A stretch of 64,000 bases of DNA from Zeus faber (lineage: Eukaryota; Chordata; Actinopteri; Zeiformes; Zeidae): NCBI GenBank assembly GCA_960531495.1, contig OY482852.1, positions 34,570,117 through 34,634,116 on the forward strand. The letters run 5' to 3'. The notes beneath the pieces were generated by a model that had not been told where the DNA came from, did no database searches, and worked only from the letters and a program-made list of their open reading frames with translations. Shown one piece after another: positions 13,305 to 64,000 of this stretch. The translations under genes were made by a program, and so were the position numbers. Each line of letters starts with the position of its first letter. Position 1 is the first letter of the stretch.

Positions 13305-13310
13305 GTTTTC

Positions 13311-14118: not shown

Positions 14119-14172
14119 TATCATAGAACAATAAACACAATGGGGTTGTGCTGATGTTAATGGATCAACCTT
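14119..14172. other. Unique island inside the array edge
   Basis: About 54 bases of ordinary sequence (containing AGAACAATAAACACAATGGG and TGTGCTGATG) interrupt the satellite shortly after it begins. It is either original flank overrun by the expanding repeat or a small insertion. Confidence 0.7.
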
Positions 14173-15283
14173 TCTTTCGTTCTCCTTTATTTCAATCGTT
14201 CTTTCAATCTTTCTTTCAATTTTTCTTTCTTTCTTTCAATCTTTCTTTCAATCTTTCTTTCAGTCTTTCAATATTTCTTTCAATCTCTCTTTCAATCTAT
14301 CTTTCAATCTTTCTTTCATTCTTTCTTTCAGTCGTTCAATCTTTCTTTCAATCTTTCTTTCAATCTTTCTTTTTTCAATCTTTCTTTCATTCTTTCTTTC
14401 ATTCTTTCATTCCTTCTTTCAATCTTTCATTCTTTCTTTCAATCTTTCTTTCTTTCAATCTTTCTTTCAGTCTTTCAATCATTCAATCTTTCTTTCATTC
14501 TTTCTTTCAATCTTTCTTACTTTTAATCTTTCTCTCTTTCAATATTTCTTTCAATATTTCAATCTTTCTTTAAATCTTTCTTTCAAACTTTCAATCTTTC
14601 TTTCAATCTTTCTTTCAATCTTTCAATCTTTCAATCGATCTTTCAATCTTTCATTCAATCTTTCAATCTCTCTTTCATTCTTTCTTTCAATCTTTCAATC
14701 TTTCTTTCAATGTTTCTTTCAATCTTTCATTCTTTCTTTCAATCTTTCAATCGTTCTTTCAATCTTTCTTTTATTCTTTCTTTCAATCTTTCATTTTTTC
14801 AATCTTTCTTTCAATCTTTCAATCTTTCTTTCAATCTTTCATTCTTTCTTTCAATCTTTCAATCGTTCTTTCTTTCAATATTTCTTTCAATCTTTCAATC
14901 TTTCTTTCATTCTTTCATTCCTTCTTTCAATCTTTCTTTCATTATTTATTTCAATCTTTCTTTCATTCTTTCAATCTTTCTTTTATTCTTTTTTTTAATC
15001 TTTCTTTCAATCTTTCAATCTTTCAATCTTTCTATCAATCTTTCTTTCAATCTTTCTTTCAATCTTTCTTTCATTCTTTCTTTAAATTTTTATTACTTTC
15101 AATCTTTCTTTCTTTCAATATTTCTTTCAATCTTTAAATCTTTTTTTCATTCTTTCATTCTTTCTTTCAATCTTTCTTTCATTCTTTCTTTCAATCTGTC
15201 TTTCATTCTTTCTTTCAATCTTTCTTTCTTTCAATCTTTCTTTCAATCGTTCAATCTTTCTTTCATTCTTTCTTTCAATTTAT

Positions 15284-39400: not shown

Positions 39401-40400
39401 TTTCAAACTTTCTTTCAATCTTTCTTTTTTTCAATCATTTTTTAAATCTTTCTTTCATTCTTTCTTTCAATCTTTCAATCTTTCTTTCAATCTTTCTTTT
39501 TTCAATCTTTCTTTCATTCTTTCTATAAATCTTTCTTTCTTTCAATCTTTCTTTCCATCTTTCTTTCAATCTTTCTTTCATTCTTTCTGTCTTTCAATAT
39601 TTCTTTCAATCTTTCAATCTTTCTTTCTTTTTTCAATCTTTCTTTAAATCTTTCTTTTATTCTATCTTTAAATCTTTCTTTTTTTTCAATCTTTCTTGCA
39701 ATCTTTCTTTCAGTCTTTCAATCTTTCTTTCAAACTTTCAATCTTTCTTTCAATCTTTCAATCTTTCAATCTTTCTTTCAATTTTTCTTTCAATCTTTCA
39801 GTCTTTCGTTCATTCTTTCTTTCAATCTTTCAATCTTTCAGTCTTTCAATCTTTCTTTCATTCTTTCTTTCAATCTTTCAATCTTTCTTTCAATATTTCT
39901 TTCAATCTTTCTTTCTTTCAATCTTTCAATCTTTCTTTCATTCTTTCTTTCAATCTTTTAATCTTTCTTTCAATATTTCTTTCAATATTTCTTTCTTTCA
40001 ATCTTTCTTTCCATCTTTCTTTCAATCTTTCTTTCATTCTTTCCTTCAGTCTTTCAATCTTTCTTTCAATCTTTCTTTTTTTCAATCATTTTTTAAATCT
40101 TTCTTTCATTCTTTCTTTCAATCTTTAAATCTTTCTTTCATTCTTTCTATAAATCTTTCTTTCTTTCAATATTTCTTTCAATCTGTCAATTTTTCTTTTT
40201 TTCTTTCCATCTTTCTTTCAATCTTTCTTTCATTCTATCTTTCAATCTTTCTTTTTTCAATATTTCTTTCAATCTGTCAATTTTTCTTTCATTCTTTCAT
40301 TCTTTCTTTCAATCGTTCTTTCATTCTTTCTTTCAATCTTTCAATCTTTCTTTAAATATTTCAATCTTTCAATCTTTCTTTCAATCTTTCTTTCTTTCAA
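30401..40400. repeat. Satellite, transition zone with partial long-range repeats
   Basis: Blocks seen in the regular region to the right occur here in different combinations. The block with CTTGCAATCTTTCTTTCAGTC recurs at about 32297, 36042, 37658 and 39696 (spacings 3745, 1616 and 2038). A stretch near 33049-33447 is repeated almost exactly at 34002-34400 (953 bp apart). Confidence 0.6.
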
Positions 40401-43400
40401 TCTTTCTTTCCATCTTTCTTTCATTCTTTCCTTCAGTCTTTCAATATTTCTTTCAATCTTTCTTTCAATTTTTCTTTTTTCAATCTTTTTTTCAATCTTT
40501 TTTTCATTCTTTCTTTCAATCTTTCAATCTTTCTTTCAATCTTTCTTTCTTTTTTCAATCTTTCTTTCATTCTTTCTATAAATCTTTCTTTCTTTCAATC
40601 TTTCTTTCAATCTTTCAATCTTTCAATCTTTCTTTAATTCTTTTATTCATTCTTTCTTTCAGTCTTTCAATCTTTCTTTAAATCTTTCTTTCAATCTTTC
40701 TTTCAATCTTTCTTTCTTTCAATCTTTCTTTCCATCTTTCTTTCAATCTTTCTTTCATTCTTTCCTTCAGTCTTTCAATCTTTCTTTCAATCTTTCTTTT
40801 TTTCAATCATTTTTTAAATCTTTCTTTCATTCTTTCTTTCAATCTTTCAATCTTTCTTTCAATCTTTCTTTTTTCAATCTTTCTTTCATTCTTTCTATAA
40901 ATCTTTCTTTCTTTCAATCTTTCTTTCCATCTTTCTTTCAATCTTTCTTTCATTCTTTCTGTCTTTCAATATTTCTTTCAATCTTTCAATCTTTCTTTCT
41001 TTTTTCAATCTTTCTTTCAATCTTTCTTTTATTCTATCTTTAAATCTTTCTTTTTTTTCAATCTTTCTTGCAATCTTTCTTTCAGTCTTTCAATCTTTCT
41101 TTCAAACTTTCAATCTTTCTTTCAATCTTTCAATCTTTCAATCTTTCTTTCAATTTTTCTTTCAATCTTTCAGTCTTTCGTTCATTCTTTCTTTCAATCT
41201 TTCAATCTTTCAGTCTTTCAATCTTTCTTTCATTCTTTCTTTCAATCTTTCAATCTTTCTTTCAATATTTCTTTCAATCTTTCTTTCTTTCAATCTTTCA
41301 ATCTTTCTTTCATTCTTTCTTTCAATCTTTTAATCTTTCTTTCAATATTTCTTTTTTTCAATCATCTTTTAAATCTTTCTTTCATTCTTTTTTTCAATCT
41401 TTCAATCTTTCTTTCAATCTTTCTTTTTTCAATCTTTCTTTCATTCTTTCTATAAATCTTTCTTTCTTTCAATATTTCTTTTTTTCTTTCCATCTTTCTT
41501 TCAATCTTTCTTTCATTCTTTCTTTCAATTATTCTTTTTTCAATATTTCTTTCAATCTGTCAATTTTTCTTTCATTCTTTCATTCTTTCTTTCAATATTT
41601 CTTTCAATCTTTCTTACTTTCAATCTTTCTTTCTTTCAATCTTTCTCTCCATCTTTCTTTCATTCTTTCCTTCAGTCTTTCAATATTTCTTTCAATCTTT
41701 CTTTCAATTTTTCTTTTTTTCAATCTTTTTTTCAATCTTTCTTTCATTCTTTCTTTCAATCTTTCAATCTTTCTTTCAATCTTTCTTTCTTTTTTCAATC
41801 TTTCTTTCATTCTTTCTTTAAATCTTTCTTTCTTTCAATCTTTCTTTCAATCTTTCAATCTTTCAATCTTTCTTTAATTCTTTTATTCATTCTTTCTTTC
41901 AGTCTTTCAATCTTTCTTTAAATCTTTCTTTCAATCTTTCTTTCAATCTTTCTTACTTTCATTCTCTCTTTCTTTCAATATTTCTTTCAGTCTTTCAATC
42001 TTTCTTTCATTCTTTCTTTCAATCTTTCAATCTTTCTTTCAATATTTCTTTCAATCTTTCTTTTTTTCAATCATTTTTTAAATCTTTCTTTCATTCTTTC
42101 TTTCAATCTTTCAATCTTTCTTTCAATCTTTCTTTTTTCAATCTTTCTTTCATTCTTTCTATAAATCTTTCTTTCTTTCAATCTTTCTTTCCATCTTTCT
42201 TTCAATCTTTCTTTCATTCTTTCTTTCAATCTTTCTTTTTTCAATATTTTTTTCAATCTGTCAATTTTTCTTTCATTCTTTCATTCTTTCTTTCAATCGT
42301 TCTTTCATTCTTTCTTTCAATCTTTCAATCTTTCTTTAAATATTTCAATCTTTCTTTCAATCTTTCAATCTTTCTTTCAGTATTTCTTTCAATCTTTCTT
42401 ACTTTCAATCTTTCTTTCTTTCAATCTTTCTTTCCATCTTTCTTTCATTCTTTCCTTCAGTCTTTCAATATTTCTTTCAATCTTTCTTTCAATTTTTTGT
42501 TTTTTTCAATCTTTTTTTCAATCTTTTTTTCATTCTTTCTTTCAATCTTTCAATCTTTCTTTCTTTTTTCAATCTTTCTTTCATTCTTTCTATAAATCTT
42601 TCTTTCTTTCAATCTTTCTATCAATCTTTCAATCTTTCAATCTTTCTTTCATTCTTTCTTTCAATCTTTCAATCTTTCTTTCAATATTTCTTTCAATCTT
42701 TCTTTCTTTCAATCTTTCAATCTTTCTTTCATTCTTTCTTTCAATCTTTCAATCTTTCTTTCAATATTTCTTTCAATCTTTCTTTCTTTCAATCTTTCTT
42801 TCCATCTTTCTTTCAATCTTTCTTTCATTCTTTCCTTCAGTCTTTCAATCTTTCAATCTTTCTTTCAATATTTCTTTCAATCTTTCTTACTTTCAATCTT
42901 TCTTTCTTTCAATCTTTCTTTCCATCTTTCTTTCATTCTTTCCTTCAGTCTTTCAATATTTCTTTCAATCTTTCTTTCAATTTTTCTTTTTTTTAATCTT
43001 TTTTTCAATCTTTCTTTCATTCTTTCTTTCAATCTTTCAATCTTTCTTTCAATCTGTCTTTCTTTTTTCAATCTTTCTTTCATTCTTTCTATAAATCTTT
43101 CTTTCTTTCAATCTTTCTTTCAATCTTTCAATCTTTCAATCTTTCTTTAATTCTTTTATTCATTCTTTCTTTCAGTCTTTCAATCTTTCTTTAAATCTTT
43201 CTTTCAATCTTTCTTTCAATCTTTCTTACTTTCATTCTCTATTTCTTTCAATATTTCTTTCAGTCTTTCAATCGTTCTTTCATTCTTTCTTTCAATCTTT
43301 CAATCTTTCTTTAAATATTTCAATCTTTCAATCTTTCTTTCAATCTTTCAATCTTTCTTTCAATATTTCTTTCAATCTTTCTTACTTTCAATCTTTCTTT

Positions 43401-46400
43401 CTTTCAATCTTTCTTTCCATCTTTCTTTCATTCTTTCCTTCAGTCTTTCAATATTTCTTTCAATCTTTCTTTCAATTTTTCTTTTTTTCAATCTTTTTTT
43501 CAATCTTTCTTTCATTCTTTCTTTCAATCTTTCAATCTTTCTTTCAATCTTTCTTTCTTTTTTCAATCTTTCTTTCATTCTTTCTATAAATCTTTCTTTC
43601 TTTCAATCTTTCTTTCAATCTTTCAATCTTTCAATCTTTCTTTAATTCTTTTATTCATTCTTTCTTTCAGTCTTTCAATCTTTCTTTAAATCTTTCTTTC
43701 AATCTTTCTTTCAATCTTTCTTACTTTCATTCTCTCTTTCTTTCAATATTTCTTTCAATCTTTCTTTCAATCTTTCTTTCAATCTTTCTTTCATTCTTTA
43801 TTTCAATCTTTGTTTCATTCTTTCTTTCAATCTTTCTTTCTTTCAATCTTTCTTTCAATCTTTCTTTCAATCTTTCTTTCAATCGTTCTTTCTTTCTTTT
43901 AGTCTTTCTTTCAATCTTTCAATTTTTCAATCTTTCTTTCATTCTTTCTTTTAATCTTTCAATCTTTCTTTCATTGTTTCTTTCAATCTTTCTGTCTTTC
44001 AATATTTCTTTCAATCTTTCAATCTTTCTTTCTTTTTTCAATCTTTCTTTCAATCTTTCTTTTATTCTTTCTTTAAATCTTTCTTTTTTTTCAATCTTTC
44101 TTGCAATCTTTCTTTCAGTCTTTCAATATTTCTTTCAAACTTTCAATCTTTCTTTCAATCTTTCAATCTTTCAATCTTTCTTTCATTTTTCTTTCAATCT
44201 TTCAGTCTTTCCTTCATTCTTATTTTCAATCTTTCAATCTTTCAATCTTTCAATCTTTCTTTCATTCTTTCTTTCAATCTTTCAATCTTTCTTTCAATAT
44301 TTCTTTCAATCTTTCTTACTTTCAGTCTTTCTTTCTTTCAATCTTTCTTTCCATCTTTCTTTCATTCTTTCCTTCAGTCTTTCAATATTTCTTTCAATCT
44401 TTCTTTCAATTTTTCTTTTTTTCAATCCTTTTTTCGATCTTTCTTTCGTTCTTTCTTTCAATCTTTCAATCTTTCTTTCAATCTTTCAATCTTTCTTTCA
44501 ATATTTCTTTCAATCTTTCTTACTTTCAGTCTTTCTTTCTTTCAATCTTTCTTTCCATCTTTCTTTCATTCTTTCCTTCAGTCTTTCAATATTTCTTTCA
44601 ATCTTTCTTTCAATTTTTCTTTTTTTCAATCCTTTTTTCAATCTTTCTTTCGTTCTTTCTTTCAATCTTTCAATCTTTCTTTCAATCTTTCTTTCTTTTT
44701 TCAATCTTTCTTTCATTCTTTCTATAAATCTTTCTTTCTTTCAATCTTTCTTTCAATCTTTCAATCTTTCAATCTTTCTTTAATTCTTTTATTCATTCTT
44801 TCTTTCAGTCTTTCAATCTTTCTTTAAATCTTTCTTTCAATCTTTCTTTCAATCTATCAATCTTTCAATTTTTCTTTCATTCTTTCTTTCAATCCTTATT
44901 ACTTTCAATCTTTCTTTCAATCTTTCTTACTTTCATTCTCTCTTTCTTTCAATATTTCTTTCAATCTTTCAATCTTTCTTTCATTCTTTCATTCTTTCTT
45001 TCAATCGTTCTTTCATTCTTTCTTTCAATCTTTCAATCTTTCTTTAAATATTTCAATCTTTCAATCTTTCTTTCAATCTTTCTTTCTTTCAATCTTTCTT
45101 TCCATCTTTCTTTCATTCTTTCCTTCAGTCTTTCAATATTTCTTTCAATCTTTCTTTCAATTTTTCTTTTTTCAATCTTTTTTTCAATCTTTTTTTCATT
45201 CTTTCTTTCAATCTTTCAATCTTTCTTTCAATCTTTCTTTCTTTTTTCAATCTTTCTTTCATTCTTTCTATAAATCTTTCTTTCTTTCAATCTTTCTTTC
45301 AATCTTTCAATCTTTCAATCTTTCTTTAATTCTTTTATTCATTCTTTCTTTCAGTCTTTCAATCTTTCTTTAAATCTTTCTTTCAATCTTTCTTTCAATC
45401 TTTCTTTCTTTCAATCTTTCTTTCCATCTTTCTTTCAATCTTTCTTTCATTCTTTCCTTCAGTCTTTCAATCTTTCTTTCAATCTTTCTTTTTTTCAATC
45501 ATTTTTTAAATCTTTCTTTCATTCTTTCTTTCAATCTTTCAATCTTTCTTTCAATCTTTCTTTTTTCAATCTTTCTTTCATTCTTTCTATAAATCTTTCT
45601 TTCTTTCAATCTTTCTTTCCATCTTTCTTTCAATCTTTCTTTCATTCTTTCTGTCTTTCAATATTTCTTTCAATCTTTCAATCTTTCTTTCTTTTTTCAA
45701 TCTTTCTTTCAATCTTTCTTTTATTCTATCTTTAAATCTTTCTTTTTTTTCAATCTTTCTTGCAATCTTTCTTTCAGTCTTTCAATCTTTCTTTCAAACT
45801 TTCAATCTTTCTTTCAATCTTTCAATCTTTCAATCTTTCTTTCAATTTTTCTTTCAATCTTTCAGTCTTTCGTTCATTCTTTCTTTAAATCTTTCAATCT
45901 TTCAGTCTTTCAATCTTTCTTTCATTCTTTCTTTCAATCTTTCAATCTTTCTTTCAATATTTCTTTCAATCTTTCTTTCTTTCAATCTTTCAATCTTTCT
46001 TTCATTCTTTCTTTCAATCTTTTAATCTTTCTTTCAATCTTTCTTTTTTCAATCTTTCTTTCATTCTTTCTATAAATCTTTCTTTCTTTCAATATTTCTT
46101 TTTTTCTTTCCATCTTTCTTTCAATCTTTCTTTCATTCTTTCTTTCAATTATTCTTTTTTCAATATTTCTTTCAATCTGTCAATTTTTCTTTCATTCTTT
46201 CATTCTTTCTTTCAATATTTCTTTCAATCTTTCTTACTTTCAATCTTTCTTTCTTTCAATCTTTCTCTCCATCTTTCTTTCATTCTTTCCTTCAGTCTTT
46301 CAATATTTCTTTCAATCTTTCTTTCAATTTTTCTTTTTTTCAATCTTTTTTTCAATCTTTCTTTCATTCTTTCTTTCAATCTTTCAATCTTTCTTTCAAT

Positions 46401-49400
46401 CTTTCTTTCTTTTTTCAATCTTTCTTTCATTCTTTCTTTAAATCTTTCTTTCTTTCAATCTTTCTTTCAATCTTTCAATCTTTCAATCTTTCTTTAATTC
46501 TTTTATTCATTCTTTCTTTCAGTCTTTCAATCTTTCTTTAAATCTTTCTTTCAATCTTTCTTTCAATCTTTCTTACTTTCATTCTCTCTTTCTTTCAATA
46601 TTTCTTTCAGTCTTTCAATCTTTCTTTCATTCTTTCTTTCAATCTTTCAATCTTTCTTTCAATATTTCTTTCAATCTTTCTTTTTTTCAATCATTTTTTA
46701 AATCTTTCTTTCATTCTTTCTTTCAATCTTTCAATCTTTCTTTCAATCTTTCTTTTTTCAATCTTTCTTTCATTCTTTCTATAAATCTTTCTTTCTTTCA
46801 ATCTTTCTTTCAATCTTTCTTTCCATCTTTCTTTCAATCTTTCTTTCATTCTTTCTTTCAATCTTTCTTTTTTCAATATTTTTTTCAATCTGTCAATTTT
46901 TATTTCATTCATTCATTCTTTCTTTCAATCGTTCTTTCATTCTTTCTTTCAATCTTTCAATCTTTCTTTAAATATTTCAATCTTTCTTTCAATCTTTCAA
47001 TCTTTCTTTCAGTATTTCTTTCAATCTTTCTTACTTTCAATCTTTCTTTCTTTCAATCTTTCTTTCCATCTTTCTTTCATTCTTTCCTTCAGTCTTTCAA
47101 TATTTCTTTCAATCTTTCTTTCAATTTTTTGTTTTTTTCAATCTTTTTTTCAATCTTTCTTTCATTCTTTCTTTCAATCTTTCTTTCATTCTTTCTTTCA
47201 ATCTTTCAATCTTTCTTTCTTTTTTCAATCATTCTTTCATTCTTTCTATAAATCTTTCTTTCTTTCAATCTTTCTATCAATCTTTCAATCTTTCAATCTT
47301 TCTTTCATTCTTTCTTTCAATCTTTCAATCTTTCTTTCAATATTTCTTTCAATCTTTCTTTCTTTCAATCTTTCAATCTTTCTTTCATTCTTTCTTTCAA
47401 TCTTTCAATCTTTCTTTCAATATTTCTTTCAATCTTTCTTTCTTTCAATCTTTCTTTCCATCTTTCTTTCAATCTTTCTTTCATTCTTTCCTTCAGTCTT
47501 TCAATCTTTCAATCTTTCTTTCAATATTTCTTTCAATCTTTCTTACTTTCAATCTTTCTTTCTTTCAATCTTTCTTTCCATCTTTCTTTCATTCTTTCCT
47601 TCAGTCTTTCAATATTTCTTTCAATCTTTCTTTCAATTTTTCTTTTTTTTAATCTTTTTTTCAATCTTTCTTTCATTCTTTCTTTCAATCTTTCAATCTT
47701 TCTTTCAATCTTTCTTTCTTTTATCAATCTTTCTTTCATTCTTTCTATAAATCTTTCTTTCTTTCAATCTTTCTTTCAATCTTTCAATCTTTCAATCTTT
47801 CTTTAATTCTTTTATTCATTCTTTCTTTCAGTCTTTCAATCTTTCTTTAAATCTTTCTTTCAATCTTTCTTTCAATCTTTCTTACTTTCATTCTCTCTTT
47901 CTTTCAATATTTCTTTCAGTCTTTCAATCGTTCTTTCATTCTTTCTTTCAATCTTTCAATCTTTCTTTAAATATTTCAATCTTTCAATCTTTCTTTCAAT
48001 CTTTCAATCTTTCTTTCAATATTTCTTTCAATCTTTCTTACTTTCAATCTTTCTTTCTTTCAATCTTTCTTTCCATCTTTCTTTCATTCTTTCCTTCAGT
48101 CTTTCAATATTTCTTTCAATCTTTCTTTCAATTTTTCTTTTTTTCAATCTTTTTTTCAATCTTTCTTTCATTCTTTCTTTCAATCTTTCAATCTTTCTTT
48201 CAATCTTTCTTTCTTTTTTCAATCTTTCTTTCATTCTTTCTATAAATCTTTCTTTCTTTCAATCTTTCTTTCAATCTTTCAATCTTTCAATCTTTCTTTA
48301 ATTCTTTTATTCATTCTTTCTTTCAGTCTTTGAATCTTTCTTTAAATCTTTCTTTCAATCTTTCTTTCAATCTTTCTTACTTTCATTCTCTCTTTCTTTC
48401 AATATTTCTTTCAATCTTTCTTTCAATCTTTCTTTCAATCTTTCTTTCATTCTTTATTTCAATCTTTGTTTCATTCTTTCTTTCAATCTTTCTTTCTTTC
48501 AATCTTTCTTTCAATCTTTCTTTCAATCTTTCTTTCAATCGTTCTTTCTTTCTTTTAGTCTTTCTTTCAATCTTTCAATTTTTCAATCTTTCTTTCATTC
48601 TTTCTTTTAATCTTTCAATCTTTCTTTCATTGTTTCTTTCAATCTTTCTGTCTTTCAATATTTCTTTCAATCTTTCAATCTTTCTTTCTTTTTTCAATCT
48701 TTCTTTCAATCTTTCTTTTATTCTTTCTTTAAATCTTTCTTTTTTTTCAATCTTTCTTGCAATCTTTCTTTCAGTCTTTCAATATTTCTTTCAAACTTTC
48801 AATCTTTCTTTCAATCTTTCAATCTTTCAATCTTTCTTTCAATTTTTCTTTCAATCTTTCAGTCTTTCCTTCATTCTTATTTTCAATCTTTCAATCTTTC
48901 AATCTTTCAATCTTTCTTTCATTCTTTCTTTCAATCTTTCAATCTTTCTTTCAATATTTCTTTCAATCTTTCTTACTTTCAGTCTTTCTTTCTTTCAATC
49001 TTTCTTTCCATCTTTCTTTCATTCTTTCCTTCAGTCTTTCAATATTTCTTTCAATCTTTCTTTCAATTTTTCTTTTTTTCAATCCTTTTTTCGATCTTTC
49101 TTTCGTTCTTTCTTTCAATCTTTCAATCTTTCTTTCAATCTTTCAATCTTTCTTTCAATATTTCTTTCAATCTTTCTTACTTTCAGTCTTTCTTTCTTTC
49201 AATCTTTCTTTCCATCTTTCTTTCATTCTTTCCTTCAGTCTTTCAATATTTCTTTCAATCTTTCTTTCAATTTTTCTTTTTTTCAATCCTTTTTTCAATC
49301 TTTCTTTCGTTCTTTCTTTCAATCTTTCAATCTTTCTTTCAATCTTTCTTTCTTTTTTCAATCTTTCTTTCATTCTTTCTATAAATCTTTCTTTCTTTCA

Positions 49401-52400
49401 ATCTTTCTTTCAATCTTTCAATCTTTCAATCTTTCTTTAATTCTTTTATTCATTCTTTCTTTCAGTCTTTCAATCTTTCTTTAAATCTTTCTTTCAATCT
49501 TTCTTTCAATCTATCAATCTTTCAATTTTTCTTTCATTCTTTCTTTCAATCCTTATTACTTTCAATCTTTCTTTCAATCTTTCTTACTTTCATTCTCTCT
49601 TTCTTTCAATATTTCTTTCAATCTTTCAATCTTTCTTTCATTCTTTCATTCTTTCTTTCAATCGTTCTTTCATTCTTTCTTTCAATCTTTCAGTCTTTCT
49701 TTCAGTCTTTCAACCTTTCTTAAAATCTTTCTTTCAATCTATCTTTCAAGCTTTCAATCTTTCTTTCAATCTTTCTTTCAATCATTCAATCTTTCAATCT
49801 TTCTTTCTTTCAATCATTATTTCTATCTTTCTTTCAATCTTTCTTTCAATCTTTTTTTCATTCTTTATTTCAATCTTCGTTTCATTCTTTCTTTCAATCT
49901 TTCTTTCAATAGTTCTTTCTTTCTTTTAGTCTTTCTTTCAATCTTTCAATTTTTCAATCTTTCTTTCATTCTTTCTTTTAATCTTTCAATCTTTCTTTCA
50001 TTGTTTCTTTCAATCTTTCTGTCTTTCAATATTTCTTTCAATCTTTCTTTCTTTTTTCAATCTTTCTTTCAATCTTTCTTTTATTCTATCTTTAAATATT
50101 TCTTTTTTTTCAATCTTTCTTGCAATCTTTCTTACTTTCAGTCTTTCTTTCTTTCAATCTTTCTTTCCATCTTTCTTTCACTCTTTCCTTCAGTCTTTCA
50201 ATATTTCTTTCAATCTTTCTTTCATTTTTTCTTTTTTTCAATCCATTTTTCAATCTTTCTTTCGTTCTTTCTTTCAATCTTTCAATCTTTCTTTCAATCT
50301 TTCTTTCTTTTTTCAATCTTTCTTTCATTCTTTCTATAAATCTTTCTTTCTTTCAATCTTTCTTTCAATCTTTCAATCTTTCAATCTTTCTTTAATTCTT
50401 TTATTCATTCTTTCTTTCAGTCTTTCAATCTTTCTTTAAATCTTTCTTTCAATCTTTCTTTCAATCTATCAATCTTTCAATTTTTCTTTCATTCTTTCTT
50501 TCAGTCCTTATTACTTTCAATCTTTCTTTCAATCTTTCTTACTTTCATTCTCTCTTTCTTTCAATATTTCTTTCAATCTTTCAATCTTTCTTTCATTCTT
50601 TCATTCTTTCTTTCAATCGTTCTTTCATTCTTTCTTTCAATCTTTCAGTCTTTCTTTCAGTCTTTCAACCTTTCTTAAAATCTTTCTTTCAATCTATCTT
50701 TCAAGCTTTCAATCTTTCTTTCAATCTTTCTTTCAATCATTCAATCTTTCAATCTTTCTTTCTTTCAATCTTTATTTCTATCTTTCTTTCAATCTTTCTT
50801 TCAATCTTTCTTTCATTCTTTATTTCAATCTTCGTTTCATTCTTTCTTTCAATCTTTCTTTCAATAGTTCTTTCTTTTAATCTTTCAATCTTTCTTTCAT
50901 TGTTTCTTTCAATCTTTCTGTCTTTCAATATTTCTTTCAATCTTTCAATCTTTCTTTCTATTTTCAATCTTTCTTTCAATCTTTCTTTTATTCTGTCTTT
51001 AAATCTTTCTTTTTTTTCAATCTTTCTTGCAATCTTTCTTTCAGTCTTTCAATCTTTCTTTCAAACTTTCAATCTTTCTTTCAATCTTTCAATCTTTCAA
51101 TCTTTCTTTCAATTTTTCTTTCAATCTTTCAGTCTTTCGTTCATTCTTTCTTTCAATCTTTCAATCTATCAGTCTTTCAATCTTTCTTTCATTCTTTCTT
51201 TCAATCTTTCAATCTTTCTTTCAATATTTCTTTCAATCTTTCTTTCTTTCAATCTTTCAATCTTTCTTTCATTCTTTCTTTCAATCTTTCAATCTTTCTT
51301 TCAATATTTCTTTCAATCTTTCATTCTTTCAATCTTTCTTTCCATCTTTCTTTCAATCTTTCTTTCATTCTTTCCTTCAGTCTTTCAATCTTTCTTTCAA
51401 TCTTTCTTTTTTTCAATCATTTTTTAAATCTTTCTTTCATTCTTTCTTTCAATCTTTCAATCTTTCTTTCAATCTTTCTTTTTTCAATCTTTCTTTCATT
51501 CTTTCTATAAATCTTTCTTTCTTTCAATCTTTCTTTCCATCTTTCTTTCAATCTTTCTTTCATTCTTTCTTTCAATCTTTCTTTTTTCAATATATCTTTC
51601 AATCTGTCAATTTTTCTTTCATTCTTTCATTCTTTCTTTCAATCGTTCTTTCATTCTTTCTTTCAATCTTTCAATCTTTCTTTAAATATTTCAATCTTTC
51701 AATCTTTCTTTCAATCTTTCAATCTTTCTTTCAATATTTCTTTCAATCTTTCTTTCCATCTTTCTTTCATTCTTTCCTTCAGTCTTTCAATATTTCTTTC
51801 AATCTTTCTTTCAATTTTTCTTTTTTTCAATCTTTTTTTCAATCTTTCTTTCATTCTTTCTTTCAATCTTTCAATCTTTCTTTCAATCTTTCTTTCTTTT
51901 TTCAATCTTTCTTTCATTCTTTCTATAAATCTTTCTTTCTTTCAATCTTTCTTTCAATCTTTCAATCTTTCAATCTTTCTTTAATTCTTTTATTCATTCT
52001 TTCTTTCAGTCTTTCAATCTTTCTTTAAATCTTTCTTTCAATCTTTCTTTCAATCTTTCTTACTTTCATTCTCTCTTTCTTTCAATATTTCTTTCAGTCT
52101 TTCAATCGTTCTTTCATTCTTTCTTTCAATCTTTCAATCTTTCTTTAAATATTTCAATCTTTCAATCTTTCTTTCAATCTTTCAATCTTTCTTTCAATAT
52201 TTCTTTCAATCTTTCTTACTTTCAATCTTTCTTTCTTTCAATCTTTCTTTCCATCTTTCTTTCATTCTTTCCTTCAGTCTTTCAATATTTCTTTCAATCT
52301 TTCTTTCAATTTTTCTTTTTTTCAATCTTTTTTTCAATCTTTCTTTCATTCTTTCTTTCAATCTTTCAATCTTTCTTTCAATCTTTCTTTCTTTTTTCAA

Positions 52401-55400
52401 TCTTTCTTTCATTCTTTCTATAAATCTTTCTTTCTTTCAATCTTTCTTTCAATCTTTCAATCTTTCAATCTTTCTTTAATTCTTTTATTCATTCTTTCTT
52501 TCAGTCTTTCAATCTTTCTTTAAATCTTTCTTTCAATCTTTCTTTCAATATTTCTTTCAATCTTTCTTTCAATCTTTCTTTCAATCTTTCTTTCATTCTT
52601 TATTTCAATCTTTGTTTCATTCTTTCTTTCAATCTTTCTTTCTTTCAATCTTTCTTTCAATCTTTCTTTCAATCTTTCTTTCAATCGTTCTTTCTTTCTT
52701 TTAGTCTTTCTTTCAATCTTTCAATTTTTCAATCTTTCTTTCATTCTTTCTTTTAATCTTTCAATCTTTCTTTCATTGTTTCTTTCAATCTTTCTGTCTT
52801 TCAATATTTCTTTCAATCTTTCAATCTTTCTTTCTTTTTTCAATCTTTCTTTCAATCTTTCTTTTATTCTTTCTTTAAATCTTTCTTTTTTTTCAATCTT
52901 TCTTGCAATCTTTCTTTCAGTCTTTCAATATTTCTTTCAAACTTTCAATCTTTCTGTCAATCTTTCAATCTTTCAATCTTTCTTTCAATTTTTCTTTCAA
53001 TCTTTCAGTCTTTCCTTCATTCTTATTTTCAATCTTTCAATCTTTCAATCTTTCAATCTTTCTTTCATTCTTTCTTTCAATCTTTCAATCTTTCTTTCAA
53101 TATTTCTTTCAATCTTTCTTACTTTCAGTCTTTCTTTCTTTCAATCTTTCTTTCCATCTTTCTTTCATTCTTTCCTTCAGTCTTTCAATATTTCTTTCAA
53201 TCTTTCTTTCAATTTTTCTTTTTTTCAATCCTTTTTTCGATCTTTCTTTCGTTCTTTCTTTCAATCTTTCAATCTTTCTTTCAATCTTTCAATCTTTCTT
53301 TCAATATTTCTTTCAATCTTTCTTACTTTCAGTCTTTCTTTCTTTCAATCTTTCTTTCCATCTTTCTTTCATTCTTTCCTTCAGTCTTTCAATATTTCTT
53401 TCAATCTTTCTTTCAATTTTTCTTTTTTTCAATCCTTTTTTCAATCTTTCTTTCGTTCTTTCTTTCAATCTTTCAATCTTTCTTTCAATCTTTCTTTCTT
53501 TTTTCAATCTTTCTTTCATTCTTTCTATAAATCTTTCTTTCTTTCAATCTTTCTTTCAATCTTTCAATCTTTCAATCTTTCTTTAATTCTTTTATTCATT
53601 CTTTCTTTCAGTCTTTCAATCTTTCTTTAAATCTTTCTTTCAATCTTTCTTTCAATCTATCAATCTTTCAATTTTTCTTTCATTCTTTCTTTCAATCCTT
53701 ATTACTTTCAATCTTTCTTTCAATCTTTCTTACTTTCATTCTCTCTTTCTTTCAATATTTCTTTCAATCTTTCAATCTTTCTTTCATTCTTTCATTCTTT
53801 CTTTCAATCGTTCTTTCATTCTTTCTTTCAATCTTTCAGTCTTTCTTTCAGTCTTTCAACCTTTCTTAAAATCTTTCTTTCAATCTATCTTTCAAGCTTT
53901 CAATCTTTCTTTCAATCTTTCTTTCAATCATTCAATCTTTCAATCTTTCTTTCTTTCAATCTTTATTTCTATCTTTCTTTCAATCTTTCTTTCAATCTTT
54001 TTTTCATTCTTTATTTCAATCTTCGTTTCATTCTTTCTTTCAATCTTTCTTTCAATAGTTCTTTCTTTCTTTTAGTCTTTCTTTCAATCTTTCAATTTTT
54101 CAATCTTTCTTTCATTCTTTCTTTTAATCTTTCAATCTTTCTTTCATTGTTTCTTTCAATCTTTCTGTCTTTCAATATTTCTTTCAATCTTTCAATCTTT
54201 CTTTCTTTTTTCAATCTTTCTTTCAATCTTTCTTTTATTCTATCTTTAAATATTTCTTTTTTTTCAATCTTTCTTGCAATCTTTCTTACTTTCAGTCTTT
54301 CTTTCTTTCAATCTTTCTTTCCATCTTTCTTTCACTCTTTCCTTCAGTCTTTCAATATTTCTTTCAATCTTTCTTTCATTTTTTCTTTTTTTCAATCCAT
54401 TTTTCAATCTTTCTTTCGTTCTTTCTTTCAATCTTTCAATCTTTCTTTCAATCTTTCTTTCTTTTTTCAATCTTTCTTTCATTCTTTCTATAAATCTTTC
54501 TTTCTTTCAATCTTTCTTTCAATCTTTCAATCTTTCAATCTTTCTTTAATTCTTTTATTCATTCTTTCTTTCAGTCTTTCAATCTTTCTTTAAATCTTTC
54601 TTTCAATCTATCAATCTTTCAATTTTTCTTTCATTCTTTCTTTCAATCCTTATTACTTTCAATCTTTCTTTCAATCTTTCTTACTTTCATTCTCTCTTTC
54701 TTTCAATATTTCTTTCAATCTTTCAATCTTTCTTTCATTCTTTCATTCTTTCTTTCAATCGTTCTTTCATTCTTTCTTTCAATCTTTCAGTCTTTCTTTC
54801 AGTCTTTCAACCTTTCTTAAAATCTTTCTTTCAATCTATCTTTCAAGCTTTCAATCTTTCTTTCAATCTTTCTTTCAATCATTCAATCTTTCAATCTTTC
54901 TTTCTTTCAATCTTTATTTCTATCTTTCTTTCAATCTTTCTTTCAATCTTTCTTTCATTCTTTATTTCAATCTTCGTTTCATTCTTTCTTTCAATCTTTC
55001 TTTCAATAGTTCTTTCTTTTAATCTTTCAATCTTTCTTTCATTGTTTCTTTCAATCTTTCTGTCTTTCAATATTTCTTTCAATCTTTCAATCTTTCTTTC
55101 TATTTTCAATCTTTCTTTCAATCTTTCTTTTATTCTGTCTTTAAATCTTTCTTTTTTTTCAATCTTTCTTGCAATCTTTCTTTCAGTCTTTCAATCTTTC
55201 TTTCAAACTTTCAATCTTTCTTTCAATCTTTCAATCTTTCAATCTTTCTTTCAATTTTTCTTTCAATCTTTCAGTCTTTCGTTCATTCTTTCTTTCAATC
55301 TTTCAATCTTTCAGTCTTTCAATCTTTCTTTCATTCTTTCTTTCAATCTTTCAATCTTTCTTTCAATATTTCTTTCAATCTTTCTTTCTTTCAATCTTTC

Positions 55401-58400
55401 AATCTTTCTTTCATTCTTTCTTTCAATCTTTCAATCTTTCTTTCAATATTTCTTTCAATCTTTCTTTCTTTCAATCTTTCTTTCCATCTTTCTTTCAATC
55501 TTTCTTTCATTCTTTCCTTCAGTCTTTCAATCTTTCTTTCAATCTTTCTTTTTTTCAATGATTTTTTAAATCTTTCTTTCATTCTTTCTTTCAATCTTTC
55601 AATCTTTCTTTTTTCAATCTTTCTTTCATTCTTTCTATAAATCTTTCTTTCTTTCAATCTTTCTTTCCATCTTTCTTTCAATCTTTCTTTCATTCTTTCT
55701 TTCAATCTTTCTTTTTTCAATATATCTTTCAATCTGTCAATTTTTCTTTCATTCTTTCATTCTTTCTTTCAATCGTTCTTTCATTCTTTCTTTCAATCTT
55801 TCAATCTTTCTTTAAATATTTCAATCTTTCAATCTTTCTTTCAATCTTTCAATCTTTCTTTCAATACTTCTTTCAATCTTTCTTACTTTCAATCTTTCTT
55901 TCTTTCAATCTTTCTTTCCATCTTTCTTTCATTCTTTCCTTCAGTCTTTCAATATTTCTTTCAATCTTTCTTTCAATTTTTCTTTTTTTCAATCTTTTTT
56001 TCAATCTTTCTTTCATTCTTTCTTTCAATCTTTCAATCTTTCTTTCAATCTTTCTTTCTTTTTTCAATCTTTCTTTCATTCTTTCTATAAATCTTTCTTT
56101 CTTTCAATCTTTCAATCTTTCAATCTTTCTTTAATTCTTTTATTCATTCTTTCTTTCAGTCTTTCAATCTTTCTTTAAATCTTTCTTTCAATCTTTCTTT
56201 CAATCTTTCTTACTTTCATTCTCTCTTTCTTTCAATATTTCTTTCAGTCTTTCGATCGTTCTTTCATTCTTTCTTTCAATCTTTCAATCTTTCTTTAAAT
56301 ATTTCAATCTTTCAATCTTTCTTTCAATCTTTCAATCTTTCTTTCAATATTTCTTTCAATCTTTCTTACTTTCAATCTTTCTTTCTTTCAATCTTTCTTT
56401 CCATCTTTCTTTCATTCTTTCCTTCAGTCTTTCAATATTTCTTTCAATCTTTCTTTCAATTTTTCTTTTTTTCAATCTTTTTTTCAATCTTTCTTTCATT
56501 CTTTCTTTCAATCTTTCAATCTTTCTTTCAATCTTTCTTTCTTTTTTCAATCTTTCTTTCATTCTTTCTATAAATCTTTCTTTCTTTCAATCTTTCTTTC
56601 AATCTTTCAATCTTTCAATCTTTCTTTAATTCTTTTATTCATTCTTTCTTTCAGTCTTTCAATCTTTCTTTAAATCTTTCTTTCAATCTTTCTTTCAATC
56701 TTTCTTACTTTCATTCTCTCTTTCTTTCAATATTTCTTTCAATCTTTCTTTCAATCTTTCTTTCAATCTTTCTTTCATTCTTTATTTCAATCTTTGTTTC
56801 ATTCTTTCTTTCAATCTTTCTTTCTTTCAATCTTTCTTTCAATCTTTCTTTCAATCTTTCTTTCAATCGTTCTTTCTTTCTTTTAGTCTTTCTTTCAATC
56901 TTTCAATTTTTCAATCTTTCTTTCATTCTTTCTTTTAATCTTTCAATCTTTCTTTCATTGTTTCTTTCAATCTTTCTGTCTTTCAATATTTCTTTCAATC
57001 TTTCAATCTTTCTTTCTTTTTTCAATCTTTCTTTCAATCTTTCTTTTATTCTTTCTTTAAATCTTTCTTTTTTTTCAATCTTTCTTGCAATCTTTCTTTC
57101 AGTCTTTCAATATTTCTTTCAAACTTTCAATCTTTCTTTCAATCTTTCAATCTTTCAATCTTTCTTTCAATTTTTCTTTCAATCTTTCAGTCTTTCCTTC
57201 ATTCTTATTTTCAATCTTTCAATCTTTCAATCTTTCAATCTTTCTTTCATTCTTTCTTTCAATCTTTCAATCTTTCTTTCAATATTTCTTTCAATCTTTC
57301 TTACTTTCAGTCTTTCTTTCTTTCAATCTTTCTTTCCATCTTTCTTTCATTCTTTCCTTCAGTCTTTCAATATTTCTTTCAATCTTTCTTTCAATTTTTC
57401 TTTTTTTCAATCCTTTTTTCGATCTTTCTTTCGTTCTTTCTTTCAATCTTTCAATCTTTCTTTCAATCTTTCAATCTTTCTTTCAATATTTCTTTCAATC
57501 TTTCTTACTTTCAGTCTTTCTTTCTTTCAATCTTTCTTTCCATCTTTCTTTCATTCTTTCCTTCAGTCTTTCAATATTTCTTTCAATCTTTCTTTCAATT
57601 TTTCTTTTTTTCAATCCTTTTTTCAATCTTTCTTTCGTTCTTTCTTTCAATCTTTCAATCTTTCTTTCAATCTTTCTTTCTTTTTTCAATCTTTCTTTCA
57701 TTCTTTCTATAAATCTTTCTTTCTTTCAATCTTTCTTTCAATCTTTCAATCTTTCAATCTTTCTTTAATTCTTTTATTCATTCTTTCTTTCAGTCTTTCA
57801 ATCTTTCTTTAAATCTTTCTTTCAATCTTTCTTTCAATCTATCAATCTTTCAATTTTTCTTTCATTCTTTCTTTCAATCCTTATTACTTTCAATCTTTCT
57901 TTCAATCTTTCTTACTTTCATTCTCTCTTTCTTTCAATATTTCTTTCAATCTTTCAATCTTTCTTTCATTCTTTCATTCTTTCTTTCAATCGTTCTTTCA
58001 TTCTTTCTTTCAATCTTTCAATCTTTCTTTAAATATTTCAATCTTTCAATCTTTCTTTCAATCTTTCTTTCTTTCAATCTTTCTTTCCATCTTTCTTTCA
58101 TTCTTTCCTTCAGTCTTTCAATATTTCTTTCAATCTTTCTTTCAATTTTTCTTTTTTCAATCTTTTTTTCAATCTTTTTTTCATTCTTTCTTTCAATCTT
58201 TCAATCTTTCTTTCAATCTTTCTTTCTTTTTTCAATCTTTCTTTCATTCTTTCTATAAATCTTTCTTTCTTTCAATCTTTCTTTCAATCTTTCAATCTTT
58301 CAATCTTTCTTTAATTCTTTTATTCATTCTTTCTTTCAGTCTTTCAATATTTCTTTAAATCTTTCTTTCAATCTTTCTTTCAATCTTTCTTTCTTTCAAT

Positions 58401-61400
58401 CTTTCTTTCCATCTTTCTTTCAATCTTTCTTTCATTCTTTCCTTCAGTCTTTCAATCTTTCTTTCAATCTTTCTTTTTTTCAATCATTTTTTAAATCTTT
58501 CTTTCATTCTTTCTTTCAATCTTTCAATCTTTCTTTCAATCTTTCTTTTTTCAATCTTTCTTTCATTCTTTCTATAAATCTTTCTTTCTTTCAATCTTTC
58601 TTTCCATCTTTCTTTCAATCTTTCTTTCATTCTTTCTGTCTTTCAATATTTCTTTCAATCTTTCAATCTTTCTTTCTTTTTTCAATCTTTCTTTCAATCT
58701 TTCTTTTATTCTATCTTTAAATCTTTCTTTTTTTTCAATCTTTCTTGCAATCTTTCTTTCAGTCTTTCAATCTTTCTTTCAAACTTTCAATCTTTCTTTC
58801 AATCTTTCAATCTTTCAATCTTTCTTTCAATTTTTCTTTCAATCTTTCAGTCTTTCGTTCATTCTTTCTTTCAATCTTTCAATCTTTCAGTCTTTCAATC
58901 TTTCTTTCATTCTTTCTTTCAATCTTTCAATCTTTCTTTCAATATTTCTTTCAATCTTTCTTTCTTTCAATCTTTCAATCTTTCTTTCATTCTTTCTTTC
59001 AATCTTTTAATCTTTCTTTCAATATTTCTTTTTTTCAATCATTTTTTAAATCTTTCTTTCATTCTTTTTTTCAATCTTTCAATCTTTCTTTCAATCTTTC
59101 TTTTTTCAATCTTTCTTTCATTCTTTCTATAAATCTTTCTTTCTTTCAATATTTCTTTTTTTCTTTCCATCTTTCTTTCAATCTTTCTTTCATTCTTTCT
59201 TTCAATTATTCTTTTTTCAATATTTCTTTCAATCTGTCAATTTTTCTTTCATTCTTTCATTCTTTCTTTCAATATTTCTTTCAATCTTTCTTACTTTCAA
59301 TCTTTCTTTCTTTCAATCTTTCTCTCCATCTTTCTTTCATTCTTTCCTTCAGTCTTTCAATATTTCTTTCAATCTTTCTTTCAATTTTTCTTTTTTTCAA
59401 TCTTTTTTTCAATCTTTCTTTCATTCTTTCTTTCAATCTTTCAATCTTTCTTTCAATCTTTCTTTCTTTTTTCAATCTTTCTTTCATTCTTTCTTTAAAT
59501 CTTTCTTTCTTTCAATCTTTCTTTCAATCTTTCAATCTTTCAATCTTTCTTTAATTCTTTTATTCATTCTTTCTTTCAGTCTTTCAATCTTTCTTTAAAT
59601 CTTTCTTTCAATCTTTCTTTCAATCTTTCTTACTTTCATTCTCTCTTTCTTTCAATATTTCTTTCAGTCTTTCAATCTTTCTTTCATTCTTTCTTTCAAT
59701 CTTTCAATCTTTCTTTCAATATTTCTTTCAATCTTTCTTTTTTTCAATCATTTTTTAAATCTTTCTTTCATTCTTTCTTTCAATCTTTCAATCTTTCTTT
59801 CAATCTTTCTTTTTTCAATCTTTCTTTCATTCTTTCTATAAATCTTTCTTTCTTTCAATCTTTCTTTCCATCTTTCTTTCAATCTTTCTTTCATTCTTTC
59901 TTTCAATCTTTCTTTTTTCAATATTTTTTTCAATCTGTCAATTTTTCTTTCATTCTTTCATTCTTTCTTTCAAACTTTCAATCTTTCTTTAAATATTTCA
60001 ATCTTTCTTTCAATCTTTCAATCTTTCTTTCAGTATTTCTTTCAATCTTTCTTACTTTCAATCTTTCTTTCTTTCAATCTTTCTTTCCATCTTTCTTTCA
60101 TTCTTTCCTTCAGTCTTTCAATATTTCTTTCAATCTTTCTTTCAATTTTTTGTTTTTTTCAATCTTTTTTTCAATCTTTCTTTCATTCTTTCTTTCAATC
60201 TTTCAATCTTTCTTTCTTTTTTCAATCTTTCTTTCATTCTTTCTATAAATCTTTCTTTCTTTCAATCTTTCTATCAATCTTTCAATCTTTCAATCTTTCT
60301 TTCATTCTTTCTTTCAATCTTTCAATCTTTCTTTCAATATTTCTTTCAATCTTTCTTTCTTTCAATCTTTCAATCTTTCTTTCATTCTTTCTTTCAATCT
60401 TTCAATCTTTCTTTCAATATTTCTTTCAATCTTCCTTTCTTTCAATCTTTCTTTCCATCTTTCTTTCAATCTTTCTTTCATTCTTTCCTTCAGTCTTTCA
60501 ATCTTTCAATCTTTCTTTCAATATTTCTTTCAATCTTTCTTACTTTCAATCTTTCTTTCTTTCAATCTTTCTTTCCATCTTTCTTTCATTCTTTCCTTCA
60601 GTCTTTCAATATTTCTTTCAATCTTTCTTTCAATTTTTCTTTTTTTTAATCTTTTTTTCAATCTTTCTTTCATTCTTTCTTTCAATCTTTCAATCTTTCT
60701 TTCAATCTTTCTTTCTTTTTTCAATCTTTCTTTCATTCTTTCTATAAATCTTTCTTTCTTTCAATCTTTCTTTCAATCTTTCAATCTTTCAATCTTTCTT
60801 TAATTCTTTTATTCATTCTTTCTTTCAGTCTTTCAATCTTTCTTTAAATCTTTCTTTCAATCTTTCTTTCAATCTTTCTTACTTTCATTCTCTCTTTCTT
60901 TCAATATTTCTTTCAGTCTTTCAATCGTTCTTTCATTCTTTCTTTCAATCTTTCAATCTTTCTTTAAATATTTCAATCTTTCAATCTTTCTTTCAATCTT
61001 TCAATCTTTCTTTCAATATTTCTTTCAATCTTTCTTACTTTCAATCTTTCTTTCTTTCAATCTTTCTTTCCATCTTTCTTTCATTCTTTCCTTCAGTCTT
61101 TCAATATTTCTTTCAATCTTTCTTTCAATTTTTCTTTTTTTCAATCTTTTTTTCAATCTTTCTTTCATTCTTTCTTTCAATCTTTCAATCTTTCTTTCAA
61201 TCTTTCTTTCTTTTTTCAATCTTTCTTTCATTCTTTCTATAAATCTTTCTTTCTTTCAATCTTTCTTTCAATCTTTCAATCTTTCAATCTTTCTTTAATT
61301 CTTTTATTCATTCTTTCTTTCAGTCTTTCAATCTTTCTTTAAATCTTTCTTTCAATCTTTCTTTCAATCTTTCTTACTTTCATTCTCTCTTTCTTTCAAT

Positions 61401-64000
61401 ATTTCTTTCAATCTTTCTTTCAATCTTTCTTTCAATCTTTCTTTCATTCTTTATTTCAATCTTTGTTTCATTCTTTCTTTCAATCTTTCTTTCTTTCAAT
61501 CTTTCTTTCAATCTTTCTTTCAATCTTTCTTTCAATCGTTCTTTCTTTCTTTTAGTCTTTCTTTCAATCTTTCAATTTTTCAATCTTTCTTTCATTCTTT
61601 CTTTTAATCTTTCAATCTTTCTTTCATTGTTTCTTTCAATCTTTCTGTCTTTCAATATTTCTTTCAATCTTTCAATCTTTCTTTCTTTTTTCAATCTTTC
61701 TTTCAATCTTTCTTTTATTCTTTCTTTAAATCTTTCTTTTTTTTCAATCTTTCTTGCAATCTTTCTTTCAGTCTTTCAATATTTCTTTCAAACTTTCAAT
61801 CTTTCTTTCAATCTTTCAATCTTTCAATCTTTCTTTCAATTTTTCTTTCAATCTTTCAGTCTTTCCTTCATTCTTATTTTCAATCTTTCAATCTTTCAAT
61901 CTTTCAATCTTTCTTTCATTCTTTCTTTCAATCTTTCAATCTTTCTTTCAATATTTCTTTCAATCTTTCTTACTTTCAGTCTTTCTTTCTTTCAATCTTT
62001 CTTTCCATCTTTCTTTCATTCTTTCCTTCAGTCTTTCAATATTTCTTTCAATCTTTCTTTCAATTTTTCTTTTTTTCAATCCTTTTTTCGATCTTTCTTT
62101 CGTTCTTTCTTTCAATCTTTCAATCTTTCTTTCAATCTTTCAATCTTTCTTTCAATATTTCTTTCAATCTTTCTTACTTTCAGTCTTTCTTTCTTTCAAT
62201 CTTTCTTTCCATCTTTCTTTCATTCTTTCCTTCAGTCTTTCAATATTTCTTTCAATCTTTCTTTCAATTTTTCTTTTTTTCAATCCTTTTTTCAATCTTT
62301 CTTTCGTTCTTTCTTTCAATCTTTCAATCTTTCTTTCAATCTTTCTTTCTTTTTTCAATCTTTCTTTCATTCTTTCTATAAATCTTTCTTTCTTTCAATC
62401 TTTCTTTCAATCTTTCAATCTTTCAATCTTTCTTTAATTCTTTTATTCATTCTTTCTTTCAGTCTTTCAATCTTTCTTTAAATCTTTCTTTCAATCTTTC
62501 TTTCAATCTATCAATCTTTCAATTTTTCTTTCATTCTTTCTTTCAATCCTTATTACTTTCAATCTTTCTTTCAATCTTTCTTACTTTCATTCTCTCTTTC
62601 TTTCAATATTTCTTTCAATCTTTCAATCTTTCTTTCATTCTTTCATTCTTTCTTTCAATCGTTCTTTCATTCTTTCTTTCAATCTTTCAGTCTTTCTTTC
62701 AGTCTTTCAACCTTTCTTAAAATCTTTCTTTCAATCTATCTTTCAAGCTTTCAATCTTTCTTTCAATCTTTCTTTCAATCATTCAATCTTTCAACCTTTC
62801 TTTCTTTCAATCATTATTTCTATCTTTCTTTCAATCTTTCTTTCAATCTTTTTTTCATTCTTTATTTCAATCTTCGTTTCATTCTTTCTTTCAATCTTTC
62901 TTTCAATAGTTCTTTCTTTCTTTTAGTCTTTCTTTCAATCTTTCAATTTTTCAATCTTTCTTTCATTCTTTCTTTTAATCTTTCAATCTTTCTTTCATTG
63001 TTTCTTTCAATCTTTCTGTCTTTCAATATTTCTTTCAATCTTTCAATCTTTCTTTCTTTTTTCAATCTTTCTTTCAATCTTTCTTTTATTCTATCTTTAA
63101 ATATTTCTTTTTTTTCAATCTTTCTTGCAATCTTTCTTACTTTCAGTCTTTCTTTCTTTCAATCTTTCTTTCCATCTTTCTTTCACTCTTTCCTTCAGTC
63201 TTTCAATATTTCTTTCAATCTTTCTTTCATTTTTTCTTTTTTTCAATCCATTTTTCAATCTTTCTTTCGTTCTTTCTTTCAATCTTTCAATCTTTCTTTC
63301 AATCTTTCTTTCTTTTTTCAATCTTTCTTTCATTCTTTCTATAAATCTTTCTTTCTTTCAATCTTTCTTTCAATCTTTCAATCTTTCAATCTTTCTTTAA
63401 TTCTTTTATTCATTCTTTCTTTCAGTCTTTCAATCTTTCTTTAAATCTTTCTTTCAATCTTTCTTTCAATCTATCAATCTTTCAATTTTTCATTCATTCT
63501 TTCTTTCAATCCTTATTACTTTCAATCTTTCTTTCAATCTTTCTTACTTTCATTCTCTCTTTCTTTCAATATTTCTTTCAATCTTTCAATCTTTCTTTCA
63601 TTCTTTCATTCTTTCTTTCAATCGTTCTTTCATTCTTTCTTTCAATCTTTCAGTCTTTCTTTCAGTCTTTCAACCTTTCTTAAAATCTTTCTTTCAATCT
63701 ATCTTTCAAGCTTTCAATCTTTCTTTCAATCTTTCTTTCAATCATTCAATCTTTCAATCTTTCTTTCTTTCAATCTTTATTTCTATCTTTCTTTCAATCT
63801 TTCTTTCAATCTTTCTTTCATTCTTTATTTCAATCTTCGTTTCATTCTTTCTTTCAATCTTTCTTTCAATAGTTCTTTCTTTTAATCTTTCAATCTTTCT
63901 TTCATTGTTTCTTTCAATCTTTCTGTCTTTCAATATTTCTTTCAATCTTTCAATCTTTCTTTCTATTTTCAATCTTTCTTTCAATCTTTCTTTTATTCTG
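40401..64000. repeat. Higher-order repeat, 4.66-kb and 4.15-kb units
   Basis: The rare landmark CCTTTTTTCGATC is found with its CGA at 44435, 49092, 53238, 57420 and 62089. Spacings are 4657, 4146, 4182 and 4669 bp, so two unit types follow in the order long, short, short, long. The two types share a large common part (including paired blocks 495 bp apart, at 42877/43372, 47533/48028, 51711/52206 and 60530/61025) and differ in an internal module. Agreement between copies appears very high by eye over thousands of bases. The array runs past the window end in the middle of another unit. Confidence 0.8.

Follow-up and report, generated by a model that had tools for sequence, protein, structure and literature searches.

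Two types of kilobase higher-order repeat on a 4-bp microsatellite lattice in a satellite array of Zeus faber

Some "simple sequence" arrays carry highly homologous higher-order repeats (HORs) (PMC2588610). In human GAATG arrays, which are built on a 5-bp word, HORs of 3360 and 5630 bp were described at Yq11.1 and of 3600 bp at Yq12 (PMC2588610, 2008), and for the CATTC word, given as ancestral, a unit of 1.77 kb is described for HSat2 on chromosome 1 and one of 3.6 kb for DYZ1 (PMC4022460). Alpha satellite is described as layered, with a divergent periphery and a homogeneous interior (PMC9859433), and homogenisation and expansion of satellites have been ascribed to crossovers, together with sporadic mutation and conversion (PMC2853522). 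Here we analyzed a satellite array in a stretch of 64,000 nucleotides from the fish Zeus faber (contig OY482852.1, positions 34,570,117 to 34,634,116; hereafter the window, numbered from its first base), in which a 4-bp repeat is organised into two types of kilobase unit.

Units were counted from a landmark sequence, TTTTTTCGATC, which past 13.5 kb occurs at exactly five sites (44429, 49086, 53232, 57414 and 62083). The spacings between these sites, 4657, 4146, 4182 and 4669 bp, are exactly those given in a first-pass annotation of this DNA. Offsets between identical 60-mers peak at 4669, 4146, 4656 and 4182 bp and also at sums (8328, 8851, 12985, 12997, 17653 and 17677 bp), and copy offsets in the array lie at about 4.15, 4.18, 4.66 and 13.0 kb. 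When exact matches of at least 80 bp were chained, the diagonals at about 4.15 and 4.66 kb that the annotation had led us to expect were present; for example, 42872-50995 matched 55868-64000, 47559-53838 matched 51737-58020, and 40283-45035 matched both 44975-49692 and 57960-62689. Exact repeats in the array reach 1766 bp, whereas the longest one in simulated arrays (Markov orders 4, 8, 12 and 16, five each, n = 20) was 61-121 bp, so that the periodicity is not a product of chance.

The annotation had proposed that a 4-bp repeat was built into units of about 4.15 and 4.66 kb, and this was borne out: complete units of the same type, U1 and U4 for the longer type A and U2 and U3 for the shorter type B (Table 1), are 99.83% identical. 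Two details had to be corrected. The HOR domain begins at 40283 instead of 40401, within a longer array that starts near 14185, and the unit types do not strictly alternate, the order being partial A, A, B, B, A, B. U1 and U4 differ by 8 substitutions in 4597 bp and by indels of 72, 12, 24 and 24 bp; U2 and U3 differ by 7 substitutions in 4110 bp and by indels of 8, 12, 12, 32, 12 and 32 bp. The incomplete unit U0 differs from U1 by 9 substitutions in 4074 bp and 4 indels and from U4 by 7 substitutions in 4122 bp and 2 indels, and U5, cut by the window end, shows 3 substitutions and a single indel in each of its comparisons with U2 and U3, which cover about 1.91 kb. Across these six comparisons the divergence is uniform (0.16-0.22%), and all but two of the 18 indels have lengths divisible by 4 bp, including all ten between complete units; the two exceptions are one and the same 1-bp difference in U0. 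The 72 bp are absent from U1 alone among the three A units. A block of 8.1 kb (42872-50995 against 55868-64000) is 99.81% identical, with 15 substitutions in 8052 bp and 7 indels (all but one divisible by 4 in length), and this pair is no closer than single like units are. A 13-kb A-B-B super-unit was considered and was not established by the (A)ABBAB that the window holds.

The lattice underneath these units was visible in the self-identity of the array, which was 0.618 at a lag of 4 bp, 0.684 at 8 bp and 0.752 at 12 bp, against 0.429 expected from base composition; at odd lags from 3 to 13 it was 0.283-0.371. A free parse into 12,353 4-bp words, with 403 single-base phase slips, gave TTTC (54.6%), AATC (20.7%) and ATTC (6.4%). 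That 99.2% of bases fall in 4-bp words is a weak measure because a free parse takes any 4-mer, and the lattice claim rests on the lag identities and the word counts. In this lattice microsatellite, 4-bp words are joined into phrases of 8 and 12 bp. Periodicity at 8 and 12 bp, the word lengths named in the annotation, is there, but the basic word is 4 bp and the longer ones are combinations of it. Tandem Repeats Finder (TRF), run with periods up to 500, reported main-array periods of 8, 12, 20 and 32. The array contains 1.1% G, and its GC and AT skews per kb are even throughout, so that no large inversion is seen. It begins at about 14185, with a small satellite island outside it at 14054-14119, and its right end is open, past the window end at 64000. 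It has the properties of satellite DNA, being a head-to-tail array much longer than 10 kb (49.8 kb within the window) in which the multi-word HOR copies are far more alike than the inner words.

The two unit types have a common part, as had been noted from the first reading of the sequence. This shared block, S, is 2.10-2.17 kb long, starting 1495-1558 bp ahead of the landmark and ending 606 bp past the landmark's first base, and the rest of each unit is private to its type: a segment VA of 2.49-2.50 kb in A and a segment VB of 2.03-2.04 kb in B. To call A and B diverged units, as the annotation did, is not quite right. The two types have nearly the same S, and an end-to-end alignment of VA with VB scores 0.688 per bp, which is at chance level (0.687-0.759 in Markov nulls of a somewhat different set-up). 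When VA was cut into 200-bp windows, 22 of 23 had their matches, in shuffled order, among pieces of S or VB; these scored 0.838-1.000, where the null reached at most 0.821 (60 trials), and the remaining window scored 0.813. This makes VA a mosaic built from the same family. As judged from these alignments, A and B are not alleles that drifted apart. Between -1436 and +607 all nine variant events in S are private to one of its five copies, and differences linked to the type of the neighbouring unit are found at the two ends of S. The neighbours of the five copies include all four combinations, A/A, A/B (twice), B/B and B/A. Private variants inside the block and type-linked differences at its ends are what would be expected if S were exchanged between A and B.

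The joint between S and VA carries a trace of how the A unit may have arisen. At its border with VA, S ends in 61 bp that have 24 exact copies in the array, and these were classed by the 9 bases to their left and the 10 bases to their right. Thirteen copies have the S-type left context and right contexts other than the VA type. Nine copies have a non-S left context, and all nine have the VA-type right context; they include the copy at 38269, which lies within a 2.0-kb tandem, and the copy at 40283, which is the left edge of the HOR domain. The S-type left context is combined with the VA-type right context only at 44975 and 57960 (2 of 24), the S-to-VA joints of U1 and U4, and the reciprocal combination is absent among the 24 exact copies. 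The joint of the A unit is thus chimeric at a 61-bp identical tract, which fits an unequal exchange producing a 4,692-bp duplication. The annotation had suggested unequal exchange, and both this chimeric joint and the nature of VA as a reshuffle of S- and B-type pieces support it. S also holds an internal sub-repeat of about 488-495 bp, seen in all five copies (42872-43735 in the first S, with repeats at 42872 and 43367). The left context of the VB-to-S joint recurs at the second copy of this sub-repeat, which hints that B may have had an origin similar to that of A.

Copies in the array grow more alike inward from the one edge seen. For 400-bp windows we took the best match elsewhere in the array, as a score per bp, and the medians from edge to core were 0.884 (14-20 kb), 0.850, 0.904, 0.946, 0.988 (36-40.3 kb) and 1.000 (HOR domain). 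The first two windows score 0.755 and 0.747, which is within the range of the Markov null (0.687-0.759; two orders, 15 windows each). Spearman correlation between score and position was 0.74 for all windows (n = 124), 0.53 for those left of 40283 (n = 65), and 0.45 (n = 65) when the part left of 40283 served as both query and target. Within this flank, the partial B-type copy at 30520-32600 is colinear with the B unit and 99.06% identical across 2021 aligned bp; of its 9 indels, a 96-bp one spans the S-to-VB junction. A stretch in the order VB, S at 35422-37396 is 97.95% identical. When the junctions were tested against 14186-40282, VB to S scored 0.944 and beat 20 random joins (maximum 0.924). 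If similarity is read as age, there is moderate support from such comparisons that the order found in B is the older one. The halves of the 2.0-kb tandem pair are 99.80% identical over 2014 bp, with 4 substitutions and 2 indels (12 and 24 bp). Outside the HOR domain, at 32647-34533, lies another tandem duplication, of about 950 bp, that includes 848 bp of exact identity.

Taken together, these data make it very probable that the array grew from a 4-bp microsatellite through whole-word slippage and out-of-register exchange on the kilobase scale. Slippage would gain or lose whole 4-bp words, and out-of-register exchange, by unequal crossing-over or an equivalent template switch, would duplicate kilobase blocks. 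In the case of A, recombination would have joined two copies of the 61-bp tract, one in S some 546 bp after the landmark and the other at 40283, which is 4,692 bp further upstream; such an exchange would duplicate VA together with S, which is the A unit, and would set the left edge of the HOR domain where it lies. Afterwards, A units and B units (VB with S) would have spread while exchanging within S. Slippage with unequal exchange would account for the indels on the lattice, for the chimeric joint, for the absence of type-linked variants from the interior of S and for similarity rising from edge to core. A further reading, which we put forward tentatively and regard as somewhat doubtful, is that every stage is preserved in this one array: a bare 4-bp lattice at its edge, then dispersed duplications and a 2.0-kb tandem, and finally two interchangeable unit types of 4.1 and 4.7 kb, one of which still shows its founding 61-bp exchange tract and the parental contexts. 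If that were true, the birth of HORs from a microsatellite could be traced event by event outside mammals.

Several observations weigh against growth by slippage and unequal exchange. Indels of 5, 11 and 13 bp, which are not multiples of 4, also occur among farther copies. Units do not become less alike with distance: U0 is at least as close to U4, an A unit 17.7 kb away (7 substitutions and 2 indels), as to its neighbour U1 (9 and 4). Under these figures the later amplification as a block that the annotation proposed is no more than a possible step. Mixed contexts are common in the array, 232 of 387 61-mers with 15-40 copies having at least two different contexts on each side, so that the exchange at the A joint is a structural explanation and not a statistical rarity. 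Because the tract was delimited by the differences that separate A, B and U0, the information lies in the contexts of the remaining 22 copies, which are completely associated. The gradient comes from a single edge within the window and is not monotone, since 14-20 kb scores above 20-25 kb, and p-values are nominal because neighbouring windows share copies. In the junction test S to VA (0.867), S to VB (about 0.86) and VA to S (0.901) were not above the random joins, whose maximum was 0.924.

The same features were weighed under other explanations. Excised circles (extrachromosomal circular DNA, eccDNA) could have been amplified by rolling circle and reinserted in one or a few bursts, instead of stepwise unequal crossing-over, and both the uniform divergence of like units and the closeness of U0 and U4, which at 17.7 kb apart are as close as any A pair, would suit such bursts. 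However, a one-unit circle gives a run of a single type, so that the order A A B B A B, together with a left edge of the domain at a copy of the exchange tract, would call for at least a mixed circle plus exchange; we consider this route unlikely. Gene conversion is a possible route as well, compatible with the missing drop in similarity with distance, and crossing-over is only the probable choice among these forms of copying. It is very improbable that the regular spacing arose as an assembly artefact from repeat contigs wrongly duplicated or shuffled: low-complexity arrays do generally assemble poorly, but an assembler copies identically, and the copies here differ by substitutions and by whole-word indels such as the 72 bp lacking in U1.

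We give equally little credence to the idea that selection keeps the units because they encode or bind something, be it a transcript, a protein or a centromere protein. In its favour are long open frames on the + strand, which reach 924 aa from stop to stop. These probably follow from composition, because 1.1% G leaves nearly only TAA as a + strand stop; the - strand maximum is 121 aa, and the 8- and 32-bp indels between like units would shift a frame. A scan of the window against Rfam found no family at its cut-off. Coding sequence and structured RNA were rejected as candidates on these grounds, and we regard the array as non-coding, with no sequence-specific function indicated and a location that is presumably heterochromatic. 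One exact 37-base pattern of the satellite had 0 matches in viral_contigs, where records of the own genome may be excluded. Growth by slippage and unequal exchange is the reading we retain, and because parental tract contexts and whole-word indels are kept, the array could be used to test such models of satellite birth.

Table 1. Positions in the window of the array, its units and their parts.
Feature	Position	Strand	Basis or remark
Whole 4-bp-lattice satellite array (TTTC/AATC/ATTC words)	14185..64000	.	TRF array 14185-63993, lag identities, word counts
Diverged edge with scattered local duplications; regular HOR not seen	14185..30000	.	Best-match medians 0.884, 0.850, 0.904 in three bins
Older partial B-type copy	30520..32600	.	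Corresponds to a B unit from its landmark through +2317; right end set by the slice compared
2.0-kb tandem pair	36480..40543 (36480-38529, 38530-40543)	.	Overlaps left border of HOR domain
U0, type A without its first 546 bp	40283..44428	.	Left edge of HOR domain, at copy of 61-bp tract
U1, type A, 4657 bp	44429..49085	.	Landmark spacing, pairwise alignment
U2, type B, 4146 bp	49086..53231	.	Landmark spacing, pairwise alignment
U3, type B, 4182 bp	53232..57413	.	Landmark spacing, pairwise alignment
U4, type A, 4669 bp	57414..62082	.	Landmark spacing, pairwise alignment
U5, type B, cut by window end	62083..64000	.	Landmark spacing, pairwise alignment
Shared block S around landmark	55868..58020; others 42872-45035, 47528-49692, 51737-53838, 60525-62689	.	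Exact-match chains, boundaries, variants
A-specific segment VA	58021..60524; also 45036-47527	.	Exact-match chains, window matches
B-specific segment VB	53839..55867; also 49693-51736	.	Exact-match chains, window matches
Putative 61-bp exchange tract, S-to-VA joint of U1	44975..45035; U4 counterpart 57960-58020	.	24 exact copies, 2/24 with recombinant context

Two retroelements lie to the left of the array. A decayed retrovirus-like element occupies positions 1-4500, with a zinc-knuckle gag end, a piece of reverse transcriptase (RT), RNase H and integrase domains in separate frames. A Gypsy-like element on the - strand at 10906-13698 has gag (Retrotrans_gag, DUF4939) and an RT piece; its flanking repeats are 98.2% identical over 335 aligned bp (the ends being set by the slices compared), and it ends about 350 bp before the satellite island at 14054. 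Both flanking repeats contain a minisatellite of the heptamer AACTAGG, with 11.3 copies at 13588-13666 and 6.3 copies at 11173-11216. A search with the gag of the neighbouring retroelement scored 7,994 candidates and found 123 relatives. Among the best 120 of the 123, 34 carry an organism name; of the named relatives among the matches listed, we take 33 to be from fish and 1 to be from a bacterial metagenome-assembled genome (Plesiomonas). The best-ranked named matches have 48% identity (Gouania, Corythoichthys), and the highest identity of a named one among the matches listed is 54% (Festucalex).

HORs on such short words had been called unusual in the annotation, and yet the units of 3360, 3600 and 5630 bp (PMC2588610) and of 1.77 and 3.6 kb (PMC4022460) described in human arrays precede this one. 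Kilobase HORs on simple words are already established, this array being a further example, on a 4-bp word, and the known picture of satellites is unchanged in kind. We found no description of this satellite in the titles and abstract starts listed for openly licensed literature, which does not prove that there is none. Like the human alpha-satellite HOR arrays as described in PMC9859433, the array has a divergent periphery and a more homogeneous interior, seen here at one edge. Unlike alpha satellite, with its monomers of about 171 bp and its kinetochore attachment, it showed no such monomer among its TRF main-array periods (8, 12, 20 and 32, with periods up to 500). It resembles HSat2 and HSat3, including DYZ1, where an array of very short words was likewise reorganised into kilobase tandem units (PMC4022460), here of 4146-4182 and 4657-4669 bp. 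The word differs, being the 5-bp CATTC in those families and a TTTC/AATC lattice of 4 bp here, and self-identity does not point to a pentamer origin (0.618 at lag 4 against 0.283 at lag 5). The human Yq11.1 GAATG array resembles it in having two HOR lengths on a simple word in one array, and in that 3.36-kb HORs cover part of that array only, as the HORs do here (PMC2588610); this comparison is one of HOR lengths. The array suggests that in this fish HORs several kilobases long arise on a 4-bp word much as they do on human pentamers.

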